Below are positions 27,301-63,610 of a DNA stretch of 64,000 nucleotides, one piece after another. Position 1 is the stretch's first letter. Each line of letters begins with the position of its first letter. Origin of the DNA: Apostichopus japonicus (lineage: Eukaryota > Echinodermata > Holothuroidea > Aspidochirotida > Stichopodidae); contig NC_092572.1 in assembly GCF_037975245.1 (NCBI RefSeq), positions 18,123,489 through 18,187,488 on the forward strand, written 5' to 3'. Below the pieces are notes generated by a model that was given only the letters and a program-made list of their open reading frames with translations, did no database searches and had not been told where the DNA came from. The position numbers were made by a program, and so were the translations under genes.

Positions 27301-30300
27301 TTACATCACATACGATAGATCAGTCAAAGTGTATTTACGGAAAGCCATACGTTGAAGTGGAGATTTTAGGATTCAATACAGACGGAATAAAAACATACGT
27401 TCGTAAAACATTGGATTATTACAAAAGAATGAAGCCATGTGAGAAAAGAATGATTCATAGAGATGGTTTCAATGATTCATCTTACGTTCCAAAAAATAAA
27501 GAAACAAATGAAGAAAATGGTGCAGAGATAATAGAAAAAACAATTTCTACCTTAGACCAAAATGACTTAGTGCAAATCTTTAAAGATACACCGTTGTATA
27601 TTGTTATGTTTATTCATATCATAATGTCGAAGCTACTTCAAATCAATGGGGCAATCAATGAGTTGAACATTAACAAGATGTCTTCATTAGTTAGTTCAAT
27701 CATAACTTGCCTCGACAGAAGGTTCCAGGAGAAGCAGGGTAACGAAACTAAGTTAACAGAGCTACTACCGTTACGTATGAAACTCGCGATAGCATCTTTA
27801 AATTATGATTTAGAAATAGGTGAGTCGATTACAAACTTTGATCTTAAGGAAGCACGTCTTCAAGCTCATGAAATAGAAATGGCTCAATCAATTGGATATA
27901 TAAAACCTATCAAATCGTTGCATAGTGTTGGCGTGTCAAAATCAGACTACAATGTGTTCTCTCATGATTATATTCAAGAGTTTTGTATTGCGGAATATAT
28001 TGTTTCAGAGGATTTAGACGCTTTAAAGAAGATCCTAAAAACTTTAAAAACCAACAAGACAGAAGAAAATATAAGAACTTCCCGAATATTGCGATTTATA
28101 TGCGGTATTTCTACAACTAGAAAGAGAGAAGAAGCATTGAAGTTCTTATTAAAAAATGAATGCTGGAATACATTAACAGATTGCATGTACGAATCGGAAA
28201 ACGTTGAGGATATTCTTGATATTCACCTTAATGCAGAAGCTGTCAAACCGTCGACTCTTTTGCAGAACTATACGTCACATTCTAAGATGAAAGTTGTGCG
28301 TTTAGATGAGCGATATCATCAGAATGCTTTTAAACTGTTTATGGGAAAGTGCTTATGTTCAAATGTAAGTTTAAGTTATTTTTTATCCACATATGTATTA
28401 AGAAGTCATTCCCATCAAATCACCAAAAGGCTTAATTGATACAAACTGGTCAGAATAACTTGAAATCAAATGACAGTTGTCAGCGGAGGGTAATTTACAC
28501 TCAGCAATGTTACCTTGTTTATTTTTTGTAATGTTTGTTTATTTTCGATGCATTTGATTTCACAAATGTTATCATCTCGGCTTTTTAGTACCAAATTGAT
28601 TAACCCTTGAAACTTCACATGGGCCCATTGGGATCTCGGCAATCTTTGGATACTTACATAACCGTGTATTTGATTTCATTGTTGGTGTAATGCCATAGTA
28701 TTGAACGTGTTAATTCATCGTTTATTCCGAACAATTCTCGCTTCTTATCTCTGATATTGTTTCATTCAAAATTACTCACTGCCTTAGTAATGCAATGCCA
28801 GTTTCATAGATAACATTTTTCACATTAAAAGTGCATAATTATGCGGATAGGGAGTGGTGTCTTAGACTGGGACCACAGTGACAGTTTTTGTTATACTTTT
28901 ACAAGCAGTTTAAAGCTACTGCTAAAATTTGTTCTACAAAAATCTGCTGCGGAATCTGTGCTCAGAAATGATATAAATATATAGTAACAGTGTAGACTTT
29001 GTGTAACTTTATGTTTTATGCAAAGTGGCCTTGAATAGCATTCATTATTAGTAGTACAAAACTCTTTCTGTCAATGGCATGTTTCATCAATATAATGCAA
29101 TATAGGTAAAGGCTTAGACATACAAAGAATTAACTGGGTTTCGGCAGGAAAGTTTGCTGGTTGGGATGTAACTTCTTCTCTACACACAACAACTGCACGA
29201 TTACATAATAACCTGTCCTTCACGATAAGGAAGTGAAAGGTAAAATTTAACAGGAAATAATTATACAACCGTTGAATCCGTATCCTTGCCGGCTAGTCCC
29301 GATAATACACGTGTATTAAGTTAAGCAAAACAGGCCTCCTTACGGCCCAATGCTTTTTCATATAGATATCTAGCTGACTTCTTTTAATCTAATATAATTT
29401 ATATTCTGCTAGTCTAGAAAATCTAATATAATATTAATTCGGCTATTCTAGAAATGCAGGTCAAATGGCCCTGTAATGTGTCATTTGTTTTTGTCACACT
29501 GAAAAGAGAGGTTTATTTTGTTAATAGTGAACAATTACAAGGAATGATTTGGTGTGTCTCTTAATTGGGTATGTGAGTCGTTTATGACATTACATATAGA
29601 GAAAGTAAGTCACCATCTAACGTAACGCTCCGCATAATATCACTTTAATTAGATTTGCTTATACCTTTTTAAGCATTGTAGAGGGTTTTTGTTTTTTTAA
29701 CTGGAATTAGCAGGCTGTTGATTTTATTGACCATCTCTGTAATTGTAAATCTTGCATTCAGAGAATAGTTAAACTGACGACTAATCCCATTTTTTCCAGC
29801 TATGCTTTGATTCACCTAGAAACCGGTTATCAATCAGTGCATATAGAATGATGTTGTGAATAACACACACAGACACATATTGTATTGCAAACCAATTACA
29901 CTTATTAATACCATGTCGTGAGAGGAATACGTCAGCTATAATATATTTAACAATTTTCATGTGAGTTATTCCATTATGAGTTGGTCGACGTTTTATTAAA
30001 ATTTGTATTATTTTTATTTTTTCGAAGCTACACTTTGACTCAATATCTATCGGTGCAGAGTGCCCATTGAAATTCCTGCTGTCACTGACGTTGCCTATGG
30101 TCGACACCGTTGAATTGCGTAATCTCTCCTACGTCAATAAAGAAAGTAGTCATACGGTCGTGAACATTATTTTGTGGGCGATGGCCACAAATGTCAATAA
30201 TCGGATCAGGTAAGATAGATTATATTTATCATTAGCCTTCCTTCAAGTTTGGTTGTGACAGAAGAATTTATTAACACCAACTAACAGCCAAACACATGAT

Positions 30301-35418: not shown

Positions 35419-36005
35419 CATTACATTGTTCATAACGGCACAATCTTTTGTATCGTACTGTCTTTCAAAGGCCTGCCTCGCGTAGGAAATATGTAGTAGT
35501 TCTAACTGGAGCAAATCTGTTTCCACACTTAGTCATAGTTAATATGCTAAATAATGACAGAACATTCGAGCCAAATGGTTCAGACTGGCATTTTTTTTCA
35601 CATTCATCCTTGGAACTTGAAGAGTTAAATTACTTCTATAGCACACCGCCTATTCAACCCTCCCCCTATTCAACACCCTATTTGACCCTCTCTTCAATCT
35701 CAACTTAACATGTCGGAGGAATTTACAATCTCCTCCTTTCCCTCTCCCCCTTTTGCCCGTCGACCCGCCTTCCACTTCACCCGCTCCCCATCTTTGAATG
35801 GCCGCTGATTTTATCACTGCTGACAAAACAAGGCTTCAAGTGAAGGATATTGACCACAGTAACTCAGTGAGCACAGACGGCCAACCAAAACGTACATAGC
35901 TAACATACGTATAAAAATTTAGTACTTTTTAAGACAAAGTCGCCCAGGAAAGAACCTGGTCACGAAAACCAAACTACCGACTGATCCGCTCTCAACCCCA
36001 GTCCC

Positions 36006-36050
36006 ATTGCTTCTCGGCCTTTTGGCTAAGATCATGTGTAGTATCTGTTC
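36006..36050 (+). ncRNA. U2 snRNA 5' domain-like sequence, truncated
   Basis: ATTGCTTCTCGGCCTTTTGG then CTAAGATCATGTGTAGTATC then TGTTC matches the 5' end of U2 snRNA, including stem-loop I and the GTAGTA branch-site recognition segment, with about two differences. After TGTTC the resemblance stops: a short hairpin (TTCCC / GGGAA) follows, and stem IIb, the Sm site and stems III-IV are absent. It is most likely a truncated U2 pseudogene or a U2-headed retroposed repeat. It lies about 490 bases upstream of the PAFAH2-like start codon. Confidence 0.65.
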
Positions 36051-36535
36051 CCTTTCGAGGGGAATGGTGATGCACACCCGACGATGATCACGTATAGAAA
36101 TTAGTAGAAGAACATGTCCAAATAGTAGTAGTACATGTCAAGTAAGTAATAGTACACTTCAAGTTAGAAGTAGTACATAGTAGTACACTTAAAGTTAGTA
36201 GGAGTACATACCACTGTGGTCCTTTTGGCGTTCCATACATACGCGTATACCAATATAGGAAGTCCGATCCAACATTACATTACGCAATGTAGACTTTCGA
36301 ACATAGGTCTGGTGAGTTTCCTGTATTGAGACCCTCATTCATGAACAACGTTCTCCCTATTTCGCAGAACTGTGTCGTTCAACACATGTTTACACATTGT
36401 CATTGATATGTTTTTCAAACGAAAGTTAGTCACTTACAAGTTACAGTACTAAACGCGAGCTATTGTACGATAGCGATATACGATTTCTTTCAATCTTTGG
36501 TTAGCATCGGTGCTAGTTTTAGAAGGCTTGGCCCA

Positions 36536-39500
36536 ATGTCTTCGAACGGTTCTTTCAAACGTCAGATTCCGATTGGAAGCGGTAACTATGGCGTTGGCTG
36601 TACAGATTTCATGTCTAATTCTTCAAAAGCAGACATTGGGTAGGGTTTAACTTAGACAAGTTAGACTAGACCTAGCCTATAGGCCTAGGCTAATCCAAAT
36701 CCTTCCTGTAAAGTGTGATTTTAGGCCCTTATGTTTCGAACGTATTACTGGCAACAGCCCTAGAGTTTGATCTATGTGAGGTCTAGAATCCTACGTTGAA
36801 AAGTGTGACTACCATGGAGTACTGTACAAGTACGATTACGTTATTTTGTAAGATTACCCACAACAGCGAGGCCTAACGTTACTAGGAAGTTTAGCAAGTC
36901 AATAGCATCTCCCAACCAAAGCCTAGGTTGGCCTGCTCATTCTAGAGATATTTTTAGAATTTGATGTAATCATACTTCATTTTCATTATATTATTCATTG
37001 CCATTCTATCAAATTTTCATTCTATTATCAACATTGTTGAACCAAACTAAAGTAGGCTTCACACAAGGTACATAATCTAGGCCATATTTTATTGTCCCCG
37101 TAAGTTCTTTAATCAAGTCTAATTTTATAGTTAAAAGTGAGAGTACAATAGTTTTATGCCAAAGAGAATTTGCATGAGTTTGCCATTTTAAAACTTTTTT
37201 TTATCATGCATTGGGTTTTGTACCCAATGACTGAGCAGTGTCATGGGTGATAATGAGTGGAGACGAGGAGCCAAATGACCCCCATAACCACAGATACTCC
37301 TAACAATGTGATGATTTATGTGATAATATGGTCAAATGTACAGTAAGTCTCATTGATTGCTCCTAACCTAGTTTATGTAAAATTATGAGTGAACCTGATC
37401 TCTCTTAGTGTTATAGGTCTGTGCAATACTGCCATAACCAGAAATCTATGGTTGATAAGAAACTGTAGGTCAGTGAGGTACAGTACAGTATGTGTTAAAT
37501 GCAATGAAAGAGCATCACACTGTTTTGGAAAAGGAATATATACTGTACATAAACTATGTTTGTAGCTGTAAAGTACATATACATTTTAAGGAAGTCACCA
37601 TCTCAACCAACCATTCCTAGACAATGAAAAGGATTAAATAAGATTCTAGCAATGTAATCAGTGAAGTAAGTGCTATGAATGAGGTGACAAAACTCAAGAA
37701 TGATCATGTACTATAAATTGGTCTTTCTGGCAAGTGATTTGGGGATATGGGGACATGTGGGTGGGTTGGGGGGGGGGGAGGTGGATGGAAGTTGACAACT
37801 TTGTGAATGAACCACACATGTATAGCTCTAGATTGATAGTAATTTCATTGAATGCCCTTTTACCAGACTCTGGTTTCTTGTTTGTATTCGGTGTAATTAT
37901 TTCCTTTTCTTGTTTTTTTTTTTTTTTTAAACCTACAGATGTTTCTTCAGGTTGTTTTATCCCATTGATAAAGATCTCTTAGATGGAGACCAGAGCAAGA
38001 GAGCTCTATGGCTTCCTGGCTCAGAATATGCAAAAGGTTACGCAAGTGTCGTGAACATCCCAGGGTTTGCACTCTGTGCAAAGATCATTGCAGGTAAAGT
38101 GTAGTTCAGTTATCAGTTATGAAACTTCACGGTGTCCTCTTATTTCCCCTAGTTTGCAAACAAATGAAACAGTTAACTGTAGATAGTGAGAAGGTTGTGT
38201 TGTTAGAGAGAGAGGGGGGGGGGGCAGGTGGAGGGATGGGTGAGGGGGAGGTTGGGTGTTATGGTTTGTTAATAAAAGATGACTTAAACAGAGTTCCCTG
38301 ATTTTCAATGATTAATTATTTTAGAACTCTTGGTTGCCTTGTTGTTTTCTGAAAAGCCATGTTTTGACAACCATGGTAGAGGGTGAACTTCTTTATCTAC
38401 TATTAGATTACTTATTTATCTACTATATTCTTTATCTAACTTCTTTATCTAATCTTATCTACTACCTTCTTTATCTACTCTATATACTACTATTAGATTA
38501 CTACTATTAGATTACTATGGCGGAGGTAAAGCTTAGTGGTTAACGCCGGCGTCTCCCAGTCATGAGATCCCCGGTTCGATTCCCCGCCGACAGCAATGTG
38601 TGTCGTCTGGCAAGGGTGTTGTTCAATAAACAACTTCCCGACATGGACGTTAAATGGATGTGTGCCGAGAAATTGGCTTCGGTCAGCTTGCGAGTCTAAA
38701 AGCCTCCATGGCTTCTTTCACGAGTTCCTGCTTGCGGGAAGATCACATGTACATACATACATACTTATCTTTACAGTTGTATGAATGGTGGTTACATGAA
38801 AGACAACCTTTGTTAACCATCACTTTCTCATGGTAGAACTTAAAGAAGGTTTTCTGTTGATGTACAGGGTATTTCCAGACCTAGTTTGGATCAACTTAAT
38901 TGACAAAGATTACAGAAATTGATCTGAGCTCTTGGACCAAGTAGAATTAAATGGAAAGGTCTCATTCTTGCTACAATTTTTTAGGGGTGAAGGAATACTT
39001 CTCTGTCATTTGTAAAGAACATTGTTGAGGTGAAATTTTACTTCAGTGGATCTGCAAGAAAATATCTCTTTGGTATTAGTTTTAAAGTTAGAAGTTAGAA
39101 AAAAAAGTTGTCTGTTGTTTGCAATCAGAGATAATAGTTTTTTTGCTTTCATGAACAGGATCCAGACGAATTCCGGCGGTATGGAATGCCCCGTTAGCAT
39201 CATCAGAGAGCCCCTTCCCCGTTATAGTCTTCTCACATGGCTTGAGTTCCTGTAGGACCACCTACTGTTGCATATGCATAGATCTAGCTTCACATGGCTT
39301 CATTGTTGCAGCTGCAGAACATAGGTGAGAGCCAAAAAAAATTGTTTTTTTTTTATTTGGTATTTTGTTTGATAAAGGGTCCGGGAAAATGCTATTTCGT
39401 GTTATTGGAATCTTTGACTTTGAATAATTTTCAACACAATTTAAAGACCAAAATGAACTATTTTGTCTAATAGTGACATTAAGAGGACAAACCTTGTCAT

Positions 39501-42500
39501 GGGGTTGTATGCACAGGATTTTAAAGGTGGAGGAGGGGCCAAATTCTAAAATTACTGCGACTGATTTGGATGGACTCTGAACCTATATGGTAGGGCCAGA
39601 GGTGAATGAAGGATTTTATAATGGATGAGTTGTAGCCCTGTGGTCATTGAATCTGACTCACATATAGGGGGATCTGGGCGTTCTTTAAAGGTGTAAATTA
39701 GGGTGTACAAATAAATTTTTTGTGTTTATTTTGTGTGTTATCTTTTGAGTGGTTCAAAAGGGATGTACACTCCTAGCAGTAGTGTAATTCTTCTCCGACT
39801 GAATGTGAGATATCTCCAGACTGAACCATTTCCCCCAAACTGACAATGGAAGGTGGTGGACCATGGCCCCCCAGTTCCCCTCCCCCACCCATCGTGCAGG
39901 CCACTGGCAGTGTTGGAGGTGTTTCTTATTTATTAACTTTCCCTTGTGAGGGGGGAAGAGGTGGCTATCAGTCTTATGAGCAATCTTGTGTTTAAATATT
40001 CAAAAAACTAGGTTGAAGGATTTTTTTTTCATTGCTTGTTCTCAAAATAGCATGATGCAGTGCATCTTTCTTTAAATGACTAACACTAATGTTTACATAC
40101 AATTTATACATGTTTCTCTCTTTACATAGAAGTTTGACCATGGTTGCATAATACTGTAGCTATACAATACTGCATCAATAATTCCCTGATGCTATACTGT
40201 ACATGTCTGGGTCATCTTTAGCTACTTCTGTTGGTTGTTTCTTTCATTTTTTTTTTCTTGTAAATAATCAATGAATATTTATTTTCTTGTCTATTTCATG
40301 TTTTTTTTTTCATCTTTAAAGGGACGAATCTGCTTGTATAAGTTATTACATCAAGAACAATAATTCTGATGGAAAGTTTGTGAAAGAACTAGTGAAGCAC
40401 AAGAAAGCCCCACACGATGACTTTGAATTGAGAAATTATCAGGTAAAGTGTCTCAAAAGGGACTTCATTTCCTTGCTCAGCTTCGATTGGCATTTATATT
40501 AAGTCACAGATTTGACTTCCTGGATCCTTCATGACTTGTTTTCATTTTGGAACGTTCTAGGTGACCTTGTAACAAACAGAATTAATTATGATTTACCATT
40601 GTATTTGTTTTAATAATGTCTTTGTAACAAAGCTAGGGGAGGAGGGGGGTATGGATGGGTATGTGAGGAGGTATGTATGTAGTGCTCTCGGGCCCCAGAT
40701 GGTTAGAATCCAGCACTGTAGCCAGTGATTATTCATGAACATAACATGGATCACATTTCAGATGTGCTAGCAGTATATGATGTGGTTGCTCTGAACACCA
40801 AGTAAGGTTCACTACACTAAACTGATGTCCATGTGGCATGTAGAGAATATATGTGAAGACACACATTTCTCATGAATATCTCAAAACGAAACATATGTAG
40901 TCATAAACCTTAAGACTAGTTTGGTCTAAGTCAAACACTGATACTACACTAGGTAGACCAGCAACTTTTCTTAATGAAAATGCAATGTTAAATTCCCTTT
41001 TTTCAAAAAATTGAAAGTAAAATTGTAATGCTAAAACCACATTGATGTCTCCATATAAAATGTTTCCATGATTCAATACTTAATGATCTTTTTTTTTCTT
41101 TCTCATATTTGCAGGTAAAACAAAGAGCAGACGAATGTATAGCAACTCTAGACACACTAACTGCTATGCATGATGGGAAGGAAGTAAAAAATATTATGCC
41201 CGACAAATTTGACTTCACTCAACTACAGGTATGAAACAGCATTTATAGATTTTACATTTTTCATACTGTAGCAGGCAAAAGAAATGTGTGAAAATTCTGT
41301 ACTGGTTTCTGACGGCCACTCCAGTCTTTGGTTTCCTGCTCAGGTGTGTAACTTCTGTTCGCTGAATCATTAGTTCATATATCAAGTCAGATATGCTTTA
41401 TATTTTTCATACTCATTTATATTGTATTTTATTCTGCACTTTTACTACATATTTTGTGTCATGTAATTTTTATCTCAATACATTACATGTATAGAGATAT
41501 TGTAACAGTAAGTGGGACTCTCTCTTCTCTTAAAAATTTTTCAGCGTCTTCAAACAAAGTTCTTTTTCTCTGGAATTTCCAGAGCAAGAATATATCATAT
41601 AGACCAACAAAAGTTACTATTTTTTATTCCAGAATTGTATCTCATTCTGTGACTTTTTCACCGATTTATGTCCAAATCGGGCCAATTTGGACTGAAAACA
41701 CACTTTGGCAGACCTGTTTTGCACACGCTCCAAAACTTATGTTTTATGAAAGAGAATAGAATAGAACTGTCTTTCAACAGTGGTATCGTCTAAGATAGGG
41801 TCCTATGTATTATATATTTTATTAACATTTTAAACTTTCATTTGTTGTTTACAGGTAGGTATTAATAAGAATTTTACTACATGTATATGACATTTTATGG
41901 CTTTTATTTGCTGTATTTGATGGTTAAATGATTTTTCTTTCTTAAAACAACACTGAGCTGCCGCCCCTACTATTAGTAAAAAGATCCGTTTTTGATGATT
42001 AAGCCCCGCCCCCAAGTCTGTTTTGTAGCAGATTGGCTATGACTCATAACAGCTACACGAAAATGGCTACGCTCGCGACCAATTTCTGTAGTGTAGTTAG
42101 GTACGCGAGGTGTTAGTGTATTGCATGCTAATTACATTCTGTACTGCTGAATTCCATTTAAGGATAGTACTGGTGTTCAGGTAGCTTTTCAGAGCAAGGG
42201 CCATGATAAGTTTGTTTGATTGCCCTTCATGTATTTTGTATAATTACGTATACACATTCTTGTATTTCTGAAGGCTACTTACTGTAGGCCTAGTGCATTT
42301 AAAAAATATATATATATAAGCCTAGGCCTATTAGGCTTTCAGTGATAGCCACATTAGCATTGTACTGGTGTTCAGACAGCTTTTCCTAGGAAGGACCAGG
42401 GTAAGTTTGTTTGATGGGTACGTATAAAAGAGGAGCCGGCCATAGCATCACAACTTTTATAAGACTATAAAAATTGTATAAGGTTATGTTTTATTTATAA

Positions 42501-44236
42501 GGATATAAGATGTATAAGGTTATATGAAGTATGTTTAGCTTTCTTTTGAACCTGTAATGTTTGACATCAGATGTACAAAGAATTAAAATAAAATAACAAA
42601 ATGGAGAGGAACTGAGGTGGCTATTAGGGGAAGAGGAGGCCACTAGGCCACCCATCACTTGCATATAAAAACTTGTAACCTTCTTTTACATTATTTTTTT
42701 CCAAGTCATAAATCCATGAAATCTTCATGTCCAAAAATTGAGATGGAAAAACGTGGGTTGTTTTGATATCTAGAAATGGACACAGTTTTGATGGTAGTCA
42801 CCACTACAGTAACATACATAGTTCAATAGGCCTAGCTCTCAAGGCAGGCATCAAGAATATGGTCGAGTTGTTCGCCTCTTCTAATTTGGCTGTTGTCATT
42901 GACGTCAAACTATATGACCAAAAAGTCCAACAGAGACTGACCTAAGATGAAGGATACCACATAAAAAACAAGTTCTTAGGTATTCTATGACATTACTAAA
43001 CCTTGCAATGTCGTTCTTTCGACTAACAGGCAATGAGCGCTAAAGGCAAGACTAGCAGGATAAAGTGTAACCTGCAGAGACTATTCGTGGCAAAGTAGCA
43101 AAAATGCAAGTTATGTATTTGTTGTACCATGATTGATATTGATAATTGTAGAGACAGAGCAAAGATTTGAAATTAGGAATCAAAATTAAAACTTCCAGTA
43201 TTGAGATACTGCATCATTGATGCTCTTGTTTATTTACTGTTACATAGCAATCTAGAGCACTTTTGTGGATTTTACGCTTTATAAAATAAATTATTAAATT
43301 ATTATTAGATACAAGTCCTGGTATTGAACTCCCATTTTGAGTCTTTTGTTCAAATTCAAGATGTCTGATTCCTAATGGAAAGCTTCATTTTTCATTTCTG
43401 AGTCTGAACTCAGTCCAAACTCTCTCATTATAGTGCAAGTGCAGGCCTTTAGTTACTGTGCAAGTCAGCCTTAATTCTGTAAAGATGTTTTACTACTTTA
43501 CTTCGTTTTGGACTGGACTCTTTCTCTCAGCCTTGAAGTCAGTCCAGGTCATAATTCCACAATCCATGTCTCTACATAGGTACAATACACGTTAGTCCAG
43601 TTTCTTCAAAGGATAACCCATAATTAATATTAATCATTCAACAGGGTAAATTAGATTTGGAAAGAGTTGCGATTTGCGGACATTCTTTTGGTGGAGGAAC
43701 CTCTATCGTTGCCATGTCAAAGGATTCTAGATTCAAGTTAGTAATTGAACTCTTTATACCGTAATGGGTCCAGGTTTCAGAAATTTTTATTTTGCCATGG
43801 TTGAACTTATTGACCATGGTTGCTATTTTCACTTTGCTCTGTAGGAAGACTTAAGCTTGTTTAACAACAAAAGTTTACTTGCTGTGGCCAATTGCATTGC
43901 TGAAAGCAGTAGAGATGACAGGGAGAGGGAATGGGGAGGAAGGGTGGTGTTATCATGATGCATTATGGAAAATGCTCTGGGAAAAGAAGGTAGTGGTGGG
44001 ATGGAGGCGGGTTGCAACGTACTGTGTAAGCAACTATTAACAGATATATCTCATAGTTGAAGAAAGTTGAATAACATTTCTGATAGATAGATGGACGGAC
44101 GGACGGATGGATGGAATATGTATATATATTATACAGAAAATAGTATAGTTCTATATGTATACATATTATATCGTATACAGAAATAGTGTAGTTCTATATT
44201 ATATATATTGTATATTGTATACAGAAAATAGTATAG

Positions 44237-44284
<48 letters not shown>

Positions 44285-47200
44285 TATCGTTTACAGATAA
44301 TAGTAGAGAACATAGTATACATAAAATAGTGTAATTCTATATATGAAATGAAAGTACTGCTATACAGTATATCTTCTCATGTTTGGAGCATTTTAACATA
44401 GCGCTCATAAATGCAACATCAGATAAAATTTTCCTTCCAGTAGTTAGAATGAAACAAAAAGGGGAAATAAATTGTGCTGAATTTTTAGTTTTGATGTATT
44501 TTTGGAAACAAAAACTGCTATAGCAGCTATCTCATGATATGTTGTATCATTTCTCCTCATTGATGAGTAGTTTTGTTTTCAGTAGATGAGACAAATTTTT
44601 CAAAGATATTTTTCTTAACTGCTTTTAATGTGTTATTACTCACACTTCCTACTGCAGATGCTCAGTTCCATTAGATGCCTGGCTCTTTCCATTGTCAGGA
44701 GATGTGTATGAGAAGGTCCAGCAGCCAATTCTGTTCATCAACACGTACTACTTCCAGTGGAAGGAGAATATTTCAAAAATGAACAAACTGATGCCTTCAG
44801 AGTACAATGATGCCCGTAGGATGCTTACGATAAGGTCTGTGGTCAAACTTATGACTTTTTACAAAGTTAGCAGCTAGAAAACCGAAGCGAGCACATATTT
44901 CTCAATTGATTGCAGTTGATTGCAGTACACTATGTTATGCAAATTTGATACTGTGAATATTTATGGCCTTGTGTCGATTCATGCGAGATATGAATATTTA
45001 TGAAGCATAAATTGAAGGGTATATCTGGCATAAAATTTCATATCCATGAACTTGTTCCTTTGCACTTATCTTTCTCAATTAAGCACATTTCCTTTGTATA
45101 ATTTGCAAGTGAAGATACCAATAATTGGGTAAAATTATGATAAGATTTGAACATTTTGTGTGTTTTAGTTAACACTTTATTAGTATTAACACTTACTACA
45201 AGTGTTACAATTATTACAATTTAAACTTTATTACCAAAGTTAAGCATAAATTGAAATTAACATTTATTACAAGTATTACAATTATTACAATTACAATTAT
45301 TACAATTAACACGTTATTACCAAAAGTTATGCATAAATTGATAGGCATATCTGATGCAAAATCCATTTTCATTAAAAAAAAGAGCACGCGTCCTAGGAAT
45401 ATATCATAGAATACGTCGTCTATTGATCTTCGGAAGTAAAGATACAGTTCAGTACATTTGTAAGAATTGCTGGAAATTGACAATCAAAAGCAGATATGTG
45501 GCATTTTGAAATAGATGGAAAAAGACGTTAACTAATTATTCTTGTTTCTCAGAGAGACAGTACATTTCAGCCAGTGTGACGCACCATTACAGTACTTCTT
45601 CTTTTCAGTTTACTGTTTATTCTTGTTTCTCAGAGAGACAGTACATTTCAGCCAGTCTGACGTACCATTACTTCTTCTTTTCGTTTACTGTTTATTCTTG
45701 TTTCTCAGAGAGACAGTACATTTCAGCCAGTGTGAGGTACCATTACTTCTTCCTTTCTGTTTACTGTTTATTCTTGTTTCTCAGAGAGACAGTACATTTC
45801 AGCCAGTGTGATGTACCATTACTTCTTCCTTTCCGTTTACTGTTTATTCTTGTTTCTCAGAGAGACAGTACATTTCAGCCAGTCTGACGTACCATTACTT
45901 CTTCCTTTTCGTTTACTGTTTATTCTTGTTTCTCAGAGAGACAGTACATTTCAGCCAGTGTGATGTACCATTACTTCTTCCTTTCTGTTTACTGTTTATT
46001 CTTGTTTCTCAGAGAGACAGTACATTTCAGCCAGTGTGACGTACCATTACTTCTTCCTTTCCGTTTACTGTTTATTCTTGTTTCTCAGAGAGACAGTACA
46101 TTTCAGCCAGAGTGACGTACCATTACTTCTTCTTTTCAGTTTACTGTTTATTCTTGTTTCTCAGAGAGAGAGTACATTTCAGCCAGAGTGACGTACCATT
46201 ACATCTTCTTTTCAGTTTACTGTTTATTCTTGTTTCTCAGAGAGACAGTACATTTCAGCCAGTGTGACGTACAATTACTTCTTCCTTTCCGTTTACTGTT
46301 TATTCTTGTTTCTCAGAGAGACAGTACATTTCAGCCAGAGTGACGTACCATTACATCTTCTTTTCAGTTTACTGTTTATTCTTGTTTCTCAGAGAGACAG
46401 TACATTTCAGCCAGTGTGACGTACCATTACTTCTTCCTTTCTGTTTACTGTTTATTCTTGTTTCTCAGAGAGATAGTACATTTCAGCCAGTGTGACGTAC
46501 CATTACTTCTTCTTTTCAGTTTACTGTTTATTCTTGTTTCTCAGAGAGACAGTACATTTCAGCCAGTGTGACGTACCATTACTTCTTCTTTTCAGTTTAC
46601 TGTTTATTCTTGTTTCTCAGAGAGACAGTACATTTCAGCCAGTGTGACGTACCATTACTTCTTCCTTTCCGTTTACTGTTTATTCTTGTTTCTCAGAGAG
46701 ACAGTACATTTCAGCCAGAGTGACGTACCATTACTTCTTCTTTTCAGTTTACTGTTTATTCTTGTTTCTCAGAGAGACAGTACATTTCAGCCAGTGTGAT
46801 GTACCATTACTTCTTCCTTTCTGTTTACTGTTTATTCTTGTTTCTCAGAGAGACAGTACATTTCAGCCAGTGTGACGTACCATTACTTCTTCTTTTCAGT
46901 TTACTGTTTATTCTTGTTTCTCAGAGAGACAGTACATTTCAGCCAGTGTGACGTACCATTACTTCTTCTTTTCAGTTTACTGTTTATTCTTGTTTCTCAG
47001 AGAGACAGTACATTTCAGCCAGAGTGACGTACCATTACTTCTTACTTTCCGTTTACTGTTTATTCTTGTTTCTCAGAGAGACAGTACATTTCAGCCAGTG
47101 TGACGTACCATTACTTCTTCCTTTCCGTTTACTGTTTATTCTTGTTTCTCAAAGAGACAGTACATTTCAGCCAGTGTGACGTACCATTACTTCTTCTTTT

Positions 47201-50200
47201 CAGTTTACTGTTTATTCTTGTTTCTCAGAGAGACAGTACATTTCAGCCAGAGTGACGTACCATTACTTCTTACTTTCTGTTTACTGTTTATTCTTGTTTC
47301 TCAGAGAGACAGTACATTTCAGCCAGAGTGACGTACCATTACTTCTTCTTTTCAGTTTACTGTTTATTCTTGTTTCTCAGAGAGACAGTACATTTCAGCC
47401 AGTGTGACGTACCATTACTTCTTCCTTTCCGTTTACTGTTTATTCTTGTTTCTCAGAGAGACAGTACATTTCAGCCAGTGTGACGTACCATTACTTCTTC
47501 CTTTCCGTTTACTGTTTATTCTTGTTTCTCAGAGAGACAGTACATTTCAGCCAGTGTGACGTACCATTACTTCTTCTTTTCAGTTTACTGTTTATTCTTG
47601 TTTCTCAGAGAGGCAGTACATTTCAGCCAGTCTGACGTACCATTACTTCTTCCTTTCCGTTTACTGTTTATTCTTGTTTCTCAGAGAGACAGTACATTTC
47701 AGCCAGAGTGACGTACCATTACTTCTTCCTTTCCGTTTACTGTTTATTCTTGTTTCTCAGAGAGACAGTACATTTCAGCCAGTGTGACGTACCATTACTT
47801 CTTCTTTTCAGTTTACTGTGTATTCTTGTTTCTCAGAGAGACAGTACATTTCAGCCAGAGTGACGTACCATTACTTCTTCCTTTCCGTTTACTGTTTATT
47901 CTTGTTTCTCAGAGAGACAGTACATTTCAGCCAGAGTGACGTACCATTACTTCTTCCTTTCCGTTTACTGTTTATTCTTGTTTCTCAGAGAGACAGTACA
48001 TTTCAGCCAGTGTGACGTACCATTACTTCTTCTTTTCAGTTTACTGTTTATTCTTGTTTCTCAGAGAGACAGTACATTTCAGCCAGTGTGACGTACCATT
48101 ACTTCTTCCTTTCCGTTTACTGTTTATTCTTGTTTCTCAGAGAGACAGTACATTTCAGCCAGTGTGACGTACCATTACTTCTTCCTTTCCGTTTACTGTT
48201 TATTCTTGTTTCTCAGAGAGACAGTACATTTCAGCCAGTGTGACGTACCATTACTTCTTCCTTTCTGTTTACTGTTTATTCTTGTTTCTCAGAGAGACAG
48301 TACATTTCAGCCAGTGTGACGTACCATTACTTCTTCCTTTTCGTTTACTGTTTATTCTTGTTTCTCAGAGAGACAGTACATTTCAGCCAGAGTGACGTAC
48401 CATTACTTCTTCTTTTCAGTTTACTGTTTATTCTTGTTTCTCAGAGAGACAGTAAATTTCAGCCAGAGTGACGTACCATTACTTCTTACTTTCTGTTTAC
48501 TGTTTATTCTTGTTTCTCAGAGAGACAGTACATTTCAGCCAGAGTGACGTACCATTACTTCTTACTTTCCGTTTACTGTTTATTCTTGTTTCTCAGAGAG
48601 ACAGTACATTTCAGCCAGAGTGACGTACCATTACTTCTTCCTTTCCGTTTACTGTTTATTCTTGTTTCTCAGAGAGACAGTACATTTCAGCCAGTGTGAC
48701 GTACCATTACTTCTTCCTTTTCGTTTACTGTTTATTCTTGTTTCTCAGAGAGACAGTACCATTACTTCTTCCTTTCTGTTTACTGTTTATTCTTGTTTCT
48801 CAGAGAGACAGTAAATTTCAGCCAGTGTGACGTACCATTACTTCTTCCTTTCCGTTTACTGTTTATTCTTGTTTCTCAGAGAGACAGTACATTTCAGCCA
48901 GTGTGACGTACCATTACTTCTTCCTTTCCGTTTATTGTTTATTCTTGTTTCTCAGAGAGACAGTAAATTTCAGCCAGTGTGACGTACCATTACTTCTTCC
49001 TTTTCGTTTACTGTTTATTCTTGTTTCTCAGAGAGACAGTACATTTCAGCCAGAGTGACGTACCATTACTTCTTCTTTTCAGTTTACTGTTTATTCTTGT
49101 TTCTCAGAGAGACAGTAAATTTCAGCCAGAGTGACGTACCATTACTTCTTACTTTCTGTTTACTGTTTATTCTTGTTTCTCAGAGAGACAGTACATTTCA
49201 GCCAGTATGACGTACCATTACTTCTTCCTTTTCGTTTACTGTTTATTCTTGTTTCTCAGAGAGACAGTACATTTCAGCCAGAGTGACGTACCATTACTTC
49301 TTACTTTCTGTTTACTGTTTATTCTTGTTTCTCAGAGAGACAGTACATTCCAGCCAGTGTGACGGACCATTACTTCTTCCTTTCCGTTTACTGTTTATTC
49401 TTGTTTCTCAGAGAGACAGTACATTTCAGCCAGTGTGACGTACCATTACTTCTTCCTTTCTGTTTACTGTTTATTCTCTTGTTTCTCAGAGAGACAGTAC
49501 ATTTCAGCCAGAGTGACGTACCATTACTTCTTCCTTTCTGTTTACTGTTTATTCTTGTTTCTCAGAGAGACAGTACATTTCAGCCAGTGTGACGTACCAT
49601 TACTTCTTCCTTTCTGTTTACTGTTTATTCTCTTGTTTCTCAGAGAGACAGTACATTCCAGCCAGTGTGACGTACCATTACTTCTTACTTTCTGTTTACT
49701 GTTTATTCTTGTTTCTCAGAGAGACAGTACATTTCAGCCAGTGTGACGTACCATTACTTCTTCCTTTCTGTTTACTGTTTCTTCTTGTTTCTCAGAGAGA
49801 CAGTACATTTCAGCCAGTGTGACGTACCATTACTTCTTCCTTTCCGTTTACTGTTTATTCTTGTTTCTCAGAGAGACAGTACATTTCAGCCAGAGTGACG
49901 TACCATTACTTCTTCCTCTTGCTGTATCAAAGAAGATAAAGTACACCGGCAGCCTGAGGCCAGACATTGCTTTGGAAATCAGCAACAGAGCCATGCTGGC
50001 CTTCTTATGGCAACATTTAAGTTAGAATTAATTATGTTTTGAAATAATTTTTGTAAAGAATTTATGCAATTTTTATGTAATTTATGTAAAGAAATAATTT
50101 AATGTAAAGTAGAGGTTGCATTTTGTAATGAATTGACCACAAGTTGCTATACTGGAATGTTAAGGGCAAGATGAGTAAGTACTGTGGATTTTGATTGGAC

Positions 50201-50569
50201 CCCCCCTCCACACCCCTCCAGCAAAGCAATGGTTTCATTATTATACACACAAAAAACGATATAAATCCATGTATGAAAAGTCCAGTCTTAATTTTGTTTG
50301 ACTAGTGTAAGATTTTTTCACAGGAGATTTTGGAGATCCCTTCATGAGATGGAAATATAATGCAATATATATTTTTCAGTAAGAATGTAAGAAGTGTGAA
50401 TTTCCACATTTGCAGGATTGATATCAGTTTTGTCATTAAAATAACCGACCTTATAATAATGATTTGACTTCCAGATATCGAACCGAAGGCAGACTGGGGA
50501 GATTACGCCGCCGGTAAACATGAAGAACTTTTAATTGGTACCAATGTCAAACTCGAAGCTGCCATGTGA
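36536..50569 (+). CDS. PAFAH2: PAFAH2-type platelet-activating factor acetylhydrolase (390 aa)
   Basis: Nine exons in phase: 36536-36639, 37939-38093, 39159-39324, 40322-40442, 41115-41228, 43645-43736, 44658-44834, 49872-50020, 50475-50569 (1173 nt). It hydrolyses the sn-2 acetyl or short oxidised acyl chain of PAF-like phospholipids. Motifs in order: IPIGSGNYGVGCTDFM, FFRLFYP, VWNAPL, VIVFSHGLSS, AAAEHRDESA, ICGHSFGGGT (Ser234), PLDAWLFPL (Asp257), ETVHFSQSDVP (His314), then RAMLAFLWQHL and a C-terminal tail. Length and triad positions fit PAFAH2 (about 392 aa). No signal peptide is present, so it is the intracellular form rather than secreted PLA2G7. The start MSSNGS lacks the Gly2 needed for N-myristoylation. 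Oddities are a SINE in intron 2 and a 4.4-kb tandem array made from the start of exon 8. Confidence 0.9.
38520..38768 (+). mobile_element. tRNA-derived SINE in PAFAH2-like intron 2
   Basis: tRNA-like head with A-box-like GCTTAGTGGTTAACG and B-box GGTTCGATTCC, body containing ATGGACGTTAAAT, GGCTTCGGTCAGCTTGCG and TTCCTGCTTGCGGGA, and a tail of ACAT repeats. A diverged relative lies at 58,955-59,190. Confidence 0.75.
42160..42420 (+). repeat. Diverged direct duplication, about 195 bp apart
   Basis: The segment GTACTGGTGTTCAG followed by AGCTTTTC and AAGTTTGTTTGAT occurs at about 42,170-42,222 and again at about 42,362-42,416, in an intron of the PAFAH2-like gene. Confidence 0.5.
44090..44345. 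repeat. Compound microsatellite/minisatellite
   Basis: A GGAC/GGAT run, then repeated modules of ATACAGAAAATAGTATAG plus TTCTATAT, with a (TA)n stretch at about 44,241-44,282. It lies in intron 6 of the PAFAH2-like gene. Confidence 0.8.
45541..49916 (+). repeat. Tandem array of about 58 units copied from the intron 7/exon 8 boundary
   Basis: The main unit is 76 bp with a common 73-bp variant and two 78-bp units near 49.5-49.6 kb. Each unit contains a pyrimidine tract ending TTGTTTCTCAG, then AGAGACAGTACATTTCAGCC and a version of AGTGTGACGTACCATTACTT. This is the 3' splice site plus the first roughly 45 bases of exon 8, encoding ETVHFSQ(C/S)DVPLLLP with the catalytic His. Unit lengths are 1 mod 3, so reading from any upstream unit hits TGA in the next one. 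Only the last unit, at 49,872, continues into the true exon. One unit near 48,750 has an internal deletion. The 73-bp variant adds a second acceptor-like CTTCTTTTCAG. Confidence 0.95.
49872..50020 (+). CDS. PAFAH2: PAFAH2-like exon 8 (catalytic His exon), fused to the last array unit
   Basis: The acceptor TTTCTCAG is identical to those in the array. The exon is open from phase 2 to phase 1, reading ETVHFSQSDVPLLLPLAVSK then ending AMLAFLWQHL. The donor is A|GTTAGA; if it is not used, the frame stops after HLS. His314 completes the hydrolase triad. The exon departs from the repeat unit after CTTCTTCCT, where unique coding sequence begins. Confidence 0.85.
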
Positions 50570-53500
50570 ATAATGTGACATGGAGTTAAGAGTAAAGGCT
50601 TTAACTACTGCAAACTGAAACCAAATATCTCTGGAAATCAGTAGAAGAGTAAGAATAGAGGACAAAAGTCTGGTTCAAAGCAGGTGCAAAAATTATCCTT
50701 TGGGTACAGGTGAAGTAGGCATGGCATGGAAAGGGAGGTGCACCAACCCAACTTTTTTTCATTTTTTTATTTATTTTTATATTTTATGTGTAAATGATAA
50801 TTGTAATGATCAACTGCCAAATACAGTTGAGAATTTTTTTTCAAATGAATTTTGGAGGGAGCAATTATTAAATATTAGGGCGCTGCCATTTTGTCAATGC
50901 ATGATGACTGTTTAGTGTACCTTCACGAAGTGAATTTTTTTATCAATTTTGGTACATATTTTTATGATTAATGCAGACAATATTTCTTATAGAAACAATG
51001 CCAGTATTGCAACAGGAATGACTTTTGCAAATTTCTGCCGTTACAAAAGATTATATCCTAAAGCAATTTACTTAGAAATAATGACACATTCACACAATTG
51101 TGTATCTGTGTTATCATTTTTTGCTTCAGGTCTAGCATAAGGCCCAGTAGAAACATGGCATCTACCAAATGGAAAATCATATTTCTTAATTTTCTATTGG
51201 AAGTTGTACATTGCAAGTAGCTTTACCACAAAGGTTAATGGTGATATTTGGAAAGAAATTAATAAGTATTGTTTAATGAAAAATATATATCAAACATGGT
51301 ATTATAATTCCTCGTTTTTTAAAGAAATGTATTTTTGTGTCTTGTTTCAAGAGATAAATACAATAGTCCCAAAATTGCCATATGTGCTAAGATTTGCAAA
51401 AATTCTGTAAAATTGCAACACACATTGTAAGTTCTTTTCATTTATTTATTTATTTATATTTTTGGTGTGGTTTTGAAATGATTATATTAATGATATTTTG
51501 TTTCATCATAGAGGGCAGTTTGTCTTTATACAGATGTTATAGTGGCATTATTATGAATACATATGACTACATGAATTAAGAGCAAGGCAGTGTTTGGAAG
51601 AATGGTGGGGCTGTCAAGAGATGATATCTTTCACTCGGCATTATAGTCTTTCTAATGCAAAATATATTTTTGATTTCATTTTTACTGTGAAGAAATTTTG
51701 AAAAGGTTTTGTAGGATTTCACTTAATTTGGTCAGGGTAAGAGTTCGTTACCAGAGTTACGGAAGTATCTTTTGAAAACAAATATGTGATATTTTCAAAG
51801 AAATAATCTTCGACAAGACTGTATTTTTTACAGATATCAGCGTTTATTTAGGGTTTATTGATTGGTAGATAATGTGGCTTGTGTTATATTTACGTATAGC
51901 CGCTTCACATAAGTTTAATAAAATAAATTTTATATGGAACTTTCGCCATTTGGAACATTGCACTGTGCTACAGTTGCATTACGTTTACATTGACAAACTC
52001 TGCTTGGAAATAGCAAACTTTGTCCACTGATCAAATTGTGAGAAATCTGCAGAACTTGTCTAAACTTATGTTCAGTGACAGATTCTTTGGGGTTAATTAA
52101 CAAAAGTTCTCATTGATTAGACACTGTTGGTCGTTTTACTTTCGTAGAATGTAGATTTCGTCTGTGTATAACTGAGATTTTGTTTGAAAACGAGACATTT
52201 TGTCTGTACTTGTAACGAATTACCACCTGCCTTAAGGAAGTTGTAAGAAAACCTGCCATTTGGCGCTTTATATTTATACATTTTCCCAATATTTTGTATT
52301 TCTTATTTCTACAATTTCTTTCTAATAAATGGTTTTATACATTTTGCAGAACTTCCTATTTGTAATTCGCATGGTATCTTTTGGTAGACTGATAATATTT
52401 TATGTATTTGTCTATCAGTAATGCTAGTTTGGACTGCCTAAAGAAATCTTCATTTTAACGGTGGTGTGATAAATGACTTATTATTTGGTCCGCGATTTGT
52501 TCATTATTACTGTATGGTAGATAATGATATTTATATAGTTTATCAACTTTACTTTTAAATTTCCCATTTTGATGAATATAGGTAAACAGTCATCTTCACG
52601 CCAGGTTTATCAGATGACTTTTTTCTTTTTCTTTTTTTATATGCATTATCCAGGTTTCCGAGATGTAATATTTAACCAACAAGCCAGATATTTTATCTAT
52701 TTAATTACCAAATTCAGAAGATGTAGCTCTCTTATTTACTGACCAAGCTTAGAAGATGTAGTATCCTTATCCATCTATCCATCTAGTGTTAGCTTAGACA
52801 CTATTATAAGCAAAGATTCCAGTATTGTTCTACAGAATACTGTAAACAATGATATTGAATCCTGATGTATTATTACCAGGAATTCAAGTCACACACTTTA
52901 ATTTTTTGCATTGCATTGTATTTGTTAATGTTGTCCAAATTTGCCCTACTTTTTGGATTAAATAGACCCTTCTCTCTTAATTATAATAAAACGAAAGCTG
53001 CCGGATGAAGTATGATGCGATGTGCTTTATATTGTACACATTTGAACTTAACACCTTAAGGTTATGTATTGATAACAAATCTATTGATAAATATATATAT
53101 ATATTAAAACCGAGGATAACCTGTTTGTGTAGCTGTTTTTTTGTCTTGTTTTTTTAAAATTCTCTCTTCCAGTGGAACTGAAAAGTATAATTCCATCGGC
53201 ATTTAACAATGACTATTTTACACGACATGATAATAATAGGCCGGGGGGGGGGGGTGACATGGTCCCCTGGTCTCTCTTTGCGCACTGCACAGAAGAAACT
53301 GCTTCATAAACATTTTAGGTGTTTCTAAGTTTTGAATGTGTATTTAATCTTGCGATCAATATGCAAATATATATTATTTATCTACTCAGGGTTTCCCATT
53401 TTAAGTCTACCGTCACTATTTGGTCAAATAGTCTCTTGGTTTAAGTTTATTGAAAACATTTTAAAAATCACTTTCTTTTAATTTCGAATTGACGTAATTA

Positions 53501-60200: not shown

Positions 60201-63200
60201 ATTACAGAGATGGTCAATAAAATCAACAGCATACTAATTCCAACTTAAACCAACATTTGCTAAAAAAAATATTAAAAAAAACCTCTACAATGATTACAAA
60301 GGTATAAGCAAATATATTTTAAAGTGATATTATGCTGAGAGTTACGTTAGATGGTGACTTATTTTCTTTATATGTAATGTCAAAAACGACACACATACCC
60401 AATTGAAAGACACACAAAGTCATTCCTTCTAATTGTTCACTATTAACAAAATAAACCTCTCTTTCCAGTGTGACAAAAACATATGACACATTACAGGGGC
60501 CATTTGACCTGCATTTCTAGACTAGCTGAATTAATATTATATTAGATTTTCTAGACTAGCCGTATATAAATTATATTAGATTAAAAGAAGTCATCTAGAT
60601 AGATATGAAAAAGCATTGGGCCGCAAGGAGGCCTGTTTTGCTTATCTTAATACACGTCTATAAACGGTACTAGCCGATTCGCCGACAAGGATACGGATTC
60701 ACCGGTTGTATAATTATTTCAAGGTAATGATCCGTTAAATTTTACTTTTCACTTCCTTATCGTGAAGGACAGGTCATAATTTAATCGCGCATTTGTTGTG
60801 TGTAGAGAAGAAGTTATCCAAACCAGCAAACTTTCCTGACACAACCCAGTTAATTCTTTGTATGTCCAAGCCTTTACAACTATTTTATTATATGGATGAA
60901 ACATGCCTTTGACAGAAAGGGTTGTGTACTACTTATACAGAATGCTATTCAATACCAGTTTACATTAAATATAAAGTTACAAAAGGTCTTCACGGTTACT
61001 ACATATTTATATCATTTCTGAACACGGACTCCGCAGCAGATTTGTGTAGAACAAATTTTAGCAGTAGCTTCGAACTGCTTGTAAAAGTATAAAAAACTGT
61101 CACTGTGGTCCAAGTCTAAGACACCACTCCCTACCCGCAAAATTTTGTACTTTTAATATGAAAAATGTTATCTATGAAACTGGCAATGCATTTTTTAGGC
61201 AGTGATTAAATTTAAAATAAACAATATCAGAGATAAGTAGCGGGAATTGTTCGTAATATATACGATGAATTAACACGTTAAATTCTATGGCATTACACCA
61301 ACACTGAATCAAATACACGGTTATGTAAGTATCGAAGGATTGCCGAGTTCCAATGGGCTCCTGTGAAATTTCAAGGGTTAATCAAGTTGGCACTAAACAG
61401 CCGAGATGATAACATTTGAGAAATCAAATGCGTTGAAAGATAATCAAACGTTACAAAAAATAAACAAGTTAACATTAGTGGGTGTAAATTACCCTCCGCT
61501 GACAACTGTCACTTGATTTCAAGTTATTCTGACCAGTTTGTATCAATTAAGCCTTTTTGGTGACTTGATGGGAATGACTTCTTAATACATATGTGGATAA
61601 AAAAGTTACTTAAACTTACATTTGAACGTAAGCACTTTCCCATAAACAGTTTAAAAGCATTTTGATGATATCGCTCATCTAAACGCACAACCTTCATCAT
61701 AGAATGTGACGTATAGTTCTGCAAAAGAGTCGACGGTTCGACAGATTCTGCATTAAGGTGAATATCAATAATATCCTCAACGTTTTCCGATTCGTACATG
61801 CAATCTGTTAATGTATTCCAACATTCATTTGTCAATAAGAACTTCAATACTTCTTCTCTCTTTCTAGTTGTAGAAATACCGCATATAAATTGCAAAATTC
61901 TGGAAGTTCTTTTATTTTCTTCTGTCTTGTTGGTTTTTAAAGTTTCTAAGATCTTCTGTAAAGCGTCTAAATCCTCTGAAACAATGTAGTCCGCAATACA
62001 AAACTCTTGAATATAATCATGAGAGAACACATTGTAGTCTGATTTTGACACGCCAACACTATGCAACGCCTTGATTGGTTTGATATATCCAATTGATTGA
62101 GCCATTTCTAATTCATTAGCTTTAAGACGTGCTTTCTTCAAATCAAAGTTTATAATCGATTCACCTATTTCTAAATCATAATTTAAAGATGCTTTCGCGA
62201 GTTTCATACGTAACGGTAATAGCTTACTTAACATAGTTTCATTACCCTGCTTCTCCAGGAACCTTCTGTCGAGGCAAGTAATGATTGAACTAACTAATGA
62301 AGACATCTTGTTCATGTTCAACTCATTGATTGCCCCATTGATTTGGAGTAGCTTTGACATTATGATATGAATAAACATAACAATAAACATCGGTGTGCCT
62401 CTGAAGATTTGCACTAAATCATTTTGGTCTACGGTAGAAATTGTTTTCTCTATTTTCTTTGAATAATTTTTTTCACTTGTTTCGTTATATTTTGGAACGC
62501 CTGATGAATTATTTAAACCATCTTTGTAAATTATTCTTTTCTCACATGGCTTCAATCTTTTGTAATATTCCAATGTTTTACCGACGTATTTTTTTATTTC
62601 GTCTGCATTGAATCCTAAAATCTCCACTTCAACGTATGGTTTTCCGATAATGTACTTTGACTGATCTATCTTACGTGATGTAACCCATAACCTCAGATGT
62701 GGGTATTGATTCAACATGGACTCGTTCAATAAACGTTTTAATGAAATATCACCAGCTGAGACAACATGTGTACTGCTAGTATTTTCTTGTTGGCTTATTT
62801 CGTCTAATCCATCCAGCAGTAGATGGCATTTCCTTTCCAGTATAATGTCACACAGTTGTTCACGTGAGATATTCACATCTTCTGGCAAAGTTTTATGTAA
62901 TTGTTCTCCAATACCGGCATTAATGTCGATTCCTGTCAGTGGCAGGATGAAAAGCATTTCTTTTTTCTTGTCATTTAGTTTCTTCTTTGACCACTGACAG
63001 GCTAGATACTGACGAAGCGTTGTCTTTCCATGACCAATATCTGCAATAAACAACGCCCTCTTTATTTTTTGAGAGACCTTTGGGTCGAGCAATGATTTGC
63101 TTGTCTTGGTTTCTGTGGGTCTATTCGGATAAGTAACATTGCAAACAGTGTCAGTGTAGAGTTCATCGATGAGAACCTTCTCTCCCCATGGCAGTGGTTT

Positions 63201-63610
63201 TATGTAGCTCATCGACTGATATCGATCTTGAAGATGTTTTATCAACTTTTCCATTTCTCCTTGAAACAAGAACAGTCACAAAAGAAAATTTGATAGGTTT
63301 AGTCTTAATTTTCATCAACATTATAGCGAAGAGAATAACTTTTAAATATTTGTTAAACATTGGTTACAACAAATTGATAATTTTTTTTAGAAATGTTTTC
63401 GTTTTCGAAAATAGGATTTGAATTAGTCATGTAACATCATTTACATACTTATACGCGATTTTTGAAGCATTTCCTTAAAAGGACGATCCCCTGTTGTCGA
63501 TTGTCTTGTCTTTACATGTTAAGAGAAAACTACAATTATCAATACTGAATCATGCACTAAATACCTTTTGATAAATGTGATGAATGTTTGAGTAGAGGTT
63601 TTGTTGAATT
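57251..63610 (-). CDS. NACHT ATPase gene, copy 2 (5' part outside window)
   Basis: Minus-strand exons: 63565-63610, 61620-63259, 59730-59911, 59422-59486, 57959-58112, 57251-57278. They total 2115 nt (704 codons plus stop) and all are in phase. Walker A is [11 protein letters not shown], Walker [10 protein letters not shown], and sensor-1 WVTSRKID keeps the Arg that copy 1 has lost. The LRR-like exon reads [20 protein letters not shown]. Its 46-nt first visible exon accepts phase 0 like copy 1, so a leader (probably TM/Ig) should lie beyond 64,000. The two copies differ mainly by substitutions, with no frameshift in the 1640-nt exon. Both are therefore probably functional, and this copy is likely another receptor of the same family. 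Confidence 0.8.
58955..59190 (+). mobile_element. tRNA-derived SINE, diverged copy in arm 2
   Basis: Contains GTTTAACGCCGGTGTCTTCC, B-box GGTTCGAGTC, ATGGACGTTAAAT, GACTTCGGTCAGCTTGCGGC and TTCCTGCTTGCAGGA, then ACAT repeats. It is the same family as 38,520-38,768. It lies in the intron between the 65-nt exon and the next exon of NACHT copy 2. Confidence 0.7.

Follow-up and report, generated by a model that had tools for sequence, protein, structure and literature searches.

The window analysed here, 64,000 nt of the sea cucumber Apostichopus japonicus (RefSeq contig NC_092572.1, positions 18,123,489 to 18,187,488), contains a PAF-acetylhydrolase (PAF-AH) gene in which the boundary between intron 7 and exon 8 is repeated 58 times in tandem. 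The array is a mirage, i.e. a tandem minisatellite whose unit holds an exon boundary together with its splice signal, and whose true copy is joined to the exon; the 57 other copies are termed decoys below. With somewhat better than even confidence, we favour the explanation that the last acceptor is chosen by exon definition and that the 57 others are removed as intron, probably with a neutral effect. Two primers published for A. japonicus (PMC6721757 and PMC8635487) each have a single site in this genome, which agrees with the species. All coordinates are positions in the window, on the plus strand unless stated otherwise, and a slash marks a splice junction. The central features are as follows.

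44658..44834, plus strand: PAF-AH exon 7, ending ATAAG/GTCTGT in phase 2, with LDAW inside (gene model and human alignment).
44835..49871, plus strand: intron 7, of 5037 nt, or 718 nt if ended at the first acceptor (gene model and acceptor coordinates).
45532..45536, plus strand: CTAAT, a motif we take to be branch-site-like, found solely before unit 1; later units have GTTTACTGTTT or close variants (site contexts).
45536..49917, plus strand: mirage-type array, 58 copies of the intron 7/exon 8 boundary, mainly of 76 bp (tandem-repeat search and direct scan).
48749..48803, plus strand: unit 43, of 55 bp, without the His codon (spacing scan and codon check).
49871..49871, plus strand: last base of the acceptor AG of unit 58, the sole acceptor giving the full protein (gene model).
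49872..50020, plus strand: real exon 8, of 149 nt, with TVHFSQSD and the donor TTTAA/GTTAGA (gene model and human alignment).
49929..49936, plus strand: purine-rich, enhancer-like block AAAGAAGA in exon 8, past the end of the array (composition count).

Tandem Repeats Finder (TRF) reports a repeat of period 76 over 45536-49917, split into two adjoining rows whose matches are 96% and 95%. The unit consists of the end of intron 7, with its AG, and about 46 nt of exon 8. A direct scan for TTTCTCAG/AGAGA, in which up to two mismatches were tolerated, finds 58 acceptors, with the last AG base at 45552 in the first and at 49871 in the last. A search of the whole genome with the 76-bp unit gave at least 58 matches, and all of those listed lie at the PAF-AH locus. 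An earlier, sequence-only reading of this DNA had described about 58 units of 73-78 bp. The copy number holds, but there are no 73-bp units: the 57 acceptor spacings are 76 bp in 52 cases, 78 bp in two, and 81, 75 and 55 bp in one case each. The second acceptor ascribed to 73-bp variants is not found there; instead, an extra acceptor-like TTTTCAG/TTTA occurs in 16 of 57 units, 15 of them of 76 bp and the other the 81-bp unit 1. The AG is kept in 57 of the 58 acceptors (unit 22 reads CAA). Of the 57 decoys, 52 retain the codon for the catalytic His; in four others the codon specifies Asn, and unit 43, of 55 bp, has no such codon.

The gene itself is intact. The model has nine coding exons with GT-AG introns and encodes 390 amino acids with no internal stops. 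Residues 8-371 match positions 6-364 of the 372 in profile PF03403 (E=2.2e-114), and an alignment with human PAF-AH spans residues 8-385, in which GHSFGG, LDAW and the TVH His line up. By this near full-length match, which includes the catalytic region, the protein is assigned to the PAF-acetylhydrolase isoform II family. Its catalytic triad is presumably made up of the Ser in GHSFGG (exon 6), which we take to be the nucleophile, the Asp in LDAW (exon 7) and the His of TVH (exon 8). Unit 58 is continuous with intact exon 8. The sequence-only reading had proposed that the end of intron 7 and the start of exon 8, with the His codon, were amplified inside a working gene, and that the last unit alone runs on into real exon 8; the scan, the gene model and the human alignment all agree with this. 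Because the nine-exon gene is intact, and both the PF03403 match and the human alignment reach exons 8 and 9, the last acceptor is presumably the one in use.

Conceptual splicing shows what each acceptor would yield. Exon 7 joined to unit 58 gives the full protein, and no other acceptor among the 58 does so. Joined to any of units 1-57, exon 7 leads to a premature stop 124-4211 nt before the exon 8/9 junction. The stop after every earlier unit had been foreseen; however, it does not always fall in the next unit as had been claimed. The product is 343 amino acids long for 51 of the 57 decoys, and 395, 368, 356, 336, 369 and 369 for units 1, 2, 42, 43, 52 and 54, respectively. The 16 secondary acceptors would yield products without the His codon. 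The exon running to the exon 8 donor would measure 149 nt from unit 58, 225 nt from unit 57 and 4468 nt from unit 1. Ordinary RNA-seq could tell true from decoy splicing, because the transcripts differ by the 47th base past the junction, with CTTGCTG in the true transcript and TTCCG, TTCTG, TTCAG or TTTCG in the decoys.

One might ask whether transcripts using the array acceptors encode a true alternative isoform that ends in a hydrophobic tail (PLLLPFRLLFILVSQRDSTFQPV is one example), keeps the Ser, the Asp and usually the His, and loses the C-terminal part. The 51 decoys with a 343-residue product have closely similar tails, so the choice among them hardly matters. However, the tail is repeat sequence, partly in another frame, and decay of the transcripts is to be expected because a long distance separates the stop from the last junction downstream, the usual situation in which nonsense-mediated decay acts. 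Such an isoform seems very unlikely.

Local sequence does not set the true site apart. Decoy units 8 and 16 are identical to unit 58 from -60 to +44, a stretch of 104 nt, and therefore the selecting information must sit outside the local sequence; the sequence from -60 to +20 is common to eight of the 58 units, unit 58 included. Beyond the unit, unit 58 runs on into the body of exon 8, where AAAGAAGA stands at 49929 and the donor comes after 149 nt, a length inside the 92-177 nt range of exons 2-7. The array has no GAA in its 4382 nt, and its UCUU density is 3.06 per 100 nt compared with 0.29-0.97 in three comparison sets.

RNA structure was considered as the selector and rejected, as predicted folding does not single out unit 58 and depends on the settings. 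The accessibility of unit 58 ranks 49, 2, 3 or 7 among the 58 according to the window settings. Folds of 146 nt give z values of -3.01 for units 57-58, -1.76 for two inner units and -0.56 for unit 58 with exon 8. A local hairpin of -9.2 to -12.0 kcal/mol is predicted in units 2, 15, 30, 57 and 58, and is weaker in unit 1 (-5.7 kcal/mol).

The units also carry a record of how the array may have grown. Among the 52 units of 76 bp there are 28 types, and the most frequent of these recur 7, 6 and 5 times. The mean pairwise difference between units is 2.84 bases and ranges from 2.37 to 3.12 at lags 1-20 without a trend; neighbouring units, with a mean of 2.92 at lag 1, are not closer than distant ones. 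The longest exact repeat within the array is 249 nt. This pattern is compatible with growth of the array through slippage or unequal exchange, in which blocks were also copied to distant positions. As to concerted evolution that leaves out the boundary units, the recurring types and the odd 81-bp length of unit 1 point towards it, and the lack of closer likeness between neighbours points away from it. The branch region probably belonged to the first duplication and later changed, because 7 of 10 bases in the GTTTACTGTTT region still match the intron flank, a match equalled by 0.4% of 676 windows of intron 7.

The diversity of the units also bears on whether the array, or its copy number, stems from mis-assembly. 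Tandem arrays are hard for assemblers, and one amphioxus array was apparently mis-assembled in the draft genome, according to the portion of that work drawn on here (PMC3087553). But 28 distinct types and no exact internal repeat beyond 249 nt argue against an artefact, and so does the HiFi assembly, for which the available part of the genome report gives 64x coverage and a mean read length of 14.7 kb (PMC10344927), enough to span 4.4 kb. That the array is an artefact is scarcely credible.

Similar, smaller arrays are present in other genes of this genome. The survey covered 88 exon loci. The best 30 were taken from 70 myosin-head matches and likewise from 96 P450 matches, in each case with flanks of 1500 nt; a further 28, with flanks of 500 nt, were hand-picked from ranks 1-38 of the 126 kinesin matches. 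All 88 were run through TRF and self-BLAST. Eight loci (L014, L019, L024, L035, L039, L041, L085 and L092) were read base by base, each in part, and the remaining arrays were judged from the TRF consensus and flanks. Tandem copies that span an exon boundary, on the donor or acceptor side, were found in 6 of the 88 loci, a small, hand-judged and non-random sample with several loci from the same genes, so that the figure is not put forward as an enrichment over chance. By family they amount to 5 of 30 for myosin, 1 of 28 for kinesin and 0 of 30 for P450, where many matches are long single exons. The peptides of all six loci match the Pfam profiles Myosin_head or Kinesin. The six are given by locus and position.

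L014:1729-2709: myosin-head, donor side, 53 bp repeated 17 times over about 1 kb of intron (TRF and reading).
L024:1833-3026, gene on minus strand: myosin-head, donor side, 47 bp repeated 25 times, exon end and donor repeated.
L035:1589-2010: myosin, donor side, two copies of exon end, donor and intron start, 91% identical over 206 nt.
L039:2110-2771: myosin, donor side, 163 bp, four decoys made of the exon's last part and the donor.
L019:252-623: myosin-head, acceptor side, 124 bp, three copies of the intron end and roughly 70 exonic nt.
L085:163-480, gene on minus strand: kinesin, acceptor side, two copies of the intron end and exon start.

The 53-bp repeat of L014 begins in the last seven exon bases and presents 19 copies of the donor CTAG/GTA. 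L019 resembles the PAF-AH case most directly in layout: its three acceptors share one and the same sequence over -54 to +5 and barely differ in predicted accessibility, the true exon is 149 nt long, and the exons from the earlier acceptors (273 and 398 nt) run into stops in the true frame. The self-BLAST filter, applied to matched exons alone, flagged 4 of 80 loci (L014, L035, L041 and L092). L041 and L092 were rejected on reading, the first having one degenerate, non-tandem copy of the donor boundary upstream of its own exon (L041:1868-1922, gene on minus strand), and the second an array that begins about 10 nt past the donor, without exon sequence. L019, L024, L039 and L085 were found by TRF because the array adjoins a neighbouring exon. 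Arrays in L032 and L069 lie merely near an exon edge, judged by TRF consensus and 40-nt flanks, and were also set aside. Intronic arrays are common: 19 merged arrays occur in the 216,906 nt of L013-L072, and four of them span an exon edge, the arrays being long relative to the loci surveyed.

The favoured explanation can be put as a series of steps. A segment of about 76 bp, with the branch region, pyrimidine tract, AG and some 46 bases of exon 8, would have been duplicated in tandem, and slippage or unequal exchange would then have expanded it to 58 copies, the last of which remained attached to exon 8. Exon 7 would be spliced to the last acceptor because this site, 149 nt from the exon 8 donor, gives an exon of normal length whose body contains a purine-rich block resembling an enhancer. 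Given what is established about splicing, we infer that unit 58 is favoured by exon definition and by the nearness of the enhancer-like block. The 57 upstream acceptors, set in pyrimidine-rich, GAA-free, UCUU-dense repeats, would stay intronic. Decoys near the array end may be used occasionally, and their transcripts would then be removed by nonsense-mediated decay. The sequence-only reading had offered two options, a choice by some unknown rule or control of output through nonproductive splicing; it left out the likeliest one, a mirage handled by ordinary exon definition.

Several observations weigh against this explanation. The density of GA[AG] triplets in the array (3.13 per 100 nt vs 2.85-4.31) is not reduced, since AGAGAGA or something close to it is present in every unit; nor is there any enrichment of UCUCU. 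The motifs are read from sequence, and binding to them is putative. The position of the last site next to the exon body is dictated by the coding logic itself, so it does not count as separate evidence that the site is used. Constraint on the acceptors is possible: the AG is preserved in all units but one, and the 17-base acceptor stretch is off consensus in 3 of 884 cells vs 93 of 3068 elsewhere, where the cells are non-independent and the 93 are mostly due to a few variants common to many units. Unit 1 alone retains CTAAT at -18, and in studies of duplicated acceptors the site closest to the upstream exon has often been preferred, so that splicing could go to the first acceptor instead.

The well-kept acceptors raise the question of whether the array functions as a splicing rheostat, in which some transcripts join the 57 decoys, meet a stop and decay, so that the copy number sets PAF-AH output. 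The universal stops before the last junction, the single 343-residue outcome for most decoys and the second acceptors that bypass the His codon are all in keeping with such a role. However, column by column the test shows no excess conservation of the acceptor signals: 3 of 17 columns vary, compared with 15 of 59 in the rest of the 76-bp units (Fisher p=0.75). That boundary copies also occur in myosin and kinesin genes hints at a by-product of a general kind, and the amphioxus mirages reportedly leave splicing undisturbed, in the sections of that paper used here (PMC3087553). A rheostat is thus unlikely.

Use of the first acceptor, by scanning or proximity and with the help of its CTAAT, would give mostly defective transcripts for a 395-residue protein with a changed tail, and the allele would be weak or failing. 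The proximity preference in duplicated-acceptor constructs speaks for it. But exons 8 and 9 are still open and conserved, and the myosin-head gene at L019 has the same layout. Moreover, a genome search with PF03403, in which the best candidates were scored, gave four exon matches, all within the PAF-AH gene, and the idea of a paralogue as backup was dropped since no second locus appeared among those candidates. Unit 1 is poorly accessible in the folding model (rank 41-58 of 58 under four settings), which is weak evidence. We regard this outcome as unlikely. A wider conjecture is that boundary minisatellites are widespread in holothurian genes, that identical sites are resolved by the exon body alone, and that the PAF-AH array is a length-dependent dial on the mRNA that varies between individuals; taken as a whole, this is a long shot.

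The other coding exons of the gene are listed here.

36536..36639, plus strand: exon 1, with the ATG (MSSNGSF...; gene model and protein homology).
37939..38093, plus strand: exon 2 (gene model).
39159..39324, plus strand: exon 3 (gene model).
40322..40442, plus strand: exon 4 (gene model).
41115..41228, plus strand: exon 5 (gene model).
43645..43736, plus strand: exon 6, with GHSFGG inside (gene model and human alignment).
50475..50569, plus strand: exon 9, with the stop codon (gene model).

Just upstream of the gene, a search of 36000-52500 found a match to U2 small nuclear RNA at 36006-36082 on the plus strand (52.4 bits, 77 nt against a 192-position model), which is probably a remnant. Intron 6 has AT-rich tandem repeats at 44116-44344, of 44 bp and other periods, away from the exon edges. 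Elsewhere in the window there are two similar long open reading frames in opposite orientation, at 26724-28439 on the plus strand and 61524-63275 on the minus strand; the first, which alone was scanned, has a NACHT domain. In addition, tandem repeats of 34 bp lie near 29386 and 60514, and their sequences seem to be near reverse complements of each other. Together these pairs suggest an inverted duplication.

How a true splice site is told from a look-alike is an old question, usually put with built constructs. Here there are 57 natural decoys, two of which match the true site over 104 nt, and further genes of this genome hold smaller cases, on the donor or the acceptor side. The survey suggests that mirages reach beyond amphioxus to an echinoderm. 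In the openly licensed literature, amphioxus was the sole precedent found for boundary-spanning arrays, with none found for sea cucumbers, and no work on PAF-AH in A. japonicus was found.

Globin constructs with duplicated 3′ splice sites are said to have been studied in the 1980s. As in those, near-identical acceptors compete, and exon context and proximity reportedly decide between them; the PAF-AH array differs in being natural, in having 58 copies and in the identity of the true site and two decoys over 104 nt. Decoy or poison exons are used in regulated, often conserved, nonproductive splicing. They share with the array upstream acceptors that would give premature stops, whereas the PAF-AH decoys are known from sequence alone.

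The closest relatives are the amphioxus mirages, minisatellite-like tandem repeats of 10-160 bp over exon-intron boundaries in Adh3 and the globin genes BflGb6 and BflGb9, as described in the parts of the report consulted (PMC3087553). They likewise span a boundary, hold splice signals in many copies and lie on either side of an exon. Length polymorphism and somatic instability are reported for them, and the Adh3 data and globin reverse transcription PCR suggest to the authors no interference with regular splicing (PMC3087553, same parts). The BflGb6 haplotypes have six and three units vs 58 in PAF-AH (PMC3087553, same parts), and the host is a cephalochordate rather than a holothurian, the PAF-AH array being known from the sequence of one haplotype. 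The class itself is thus known from amphioxus; what is new is that the copies are so many, that the host is an echinoderm and that such arrays recur in other genes.

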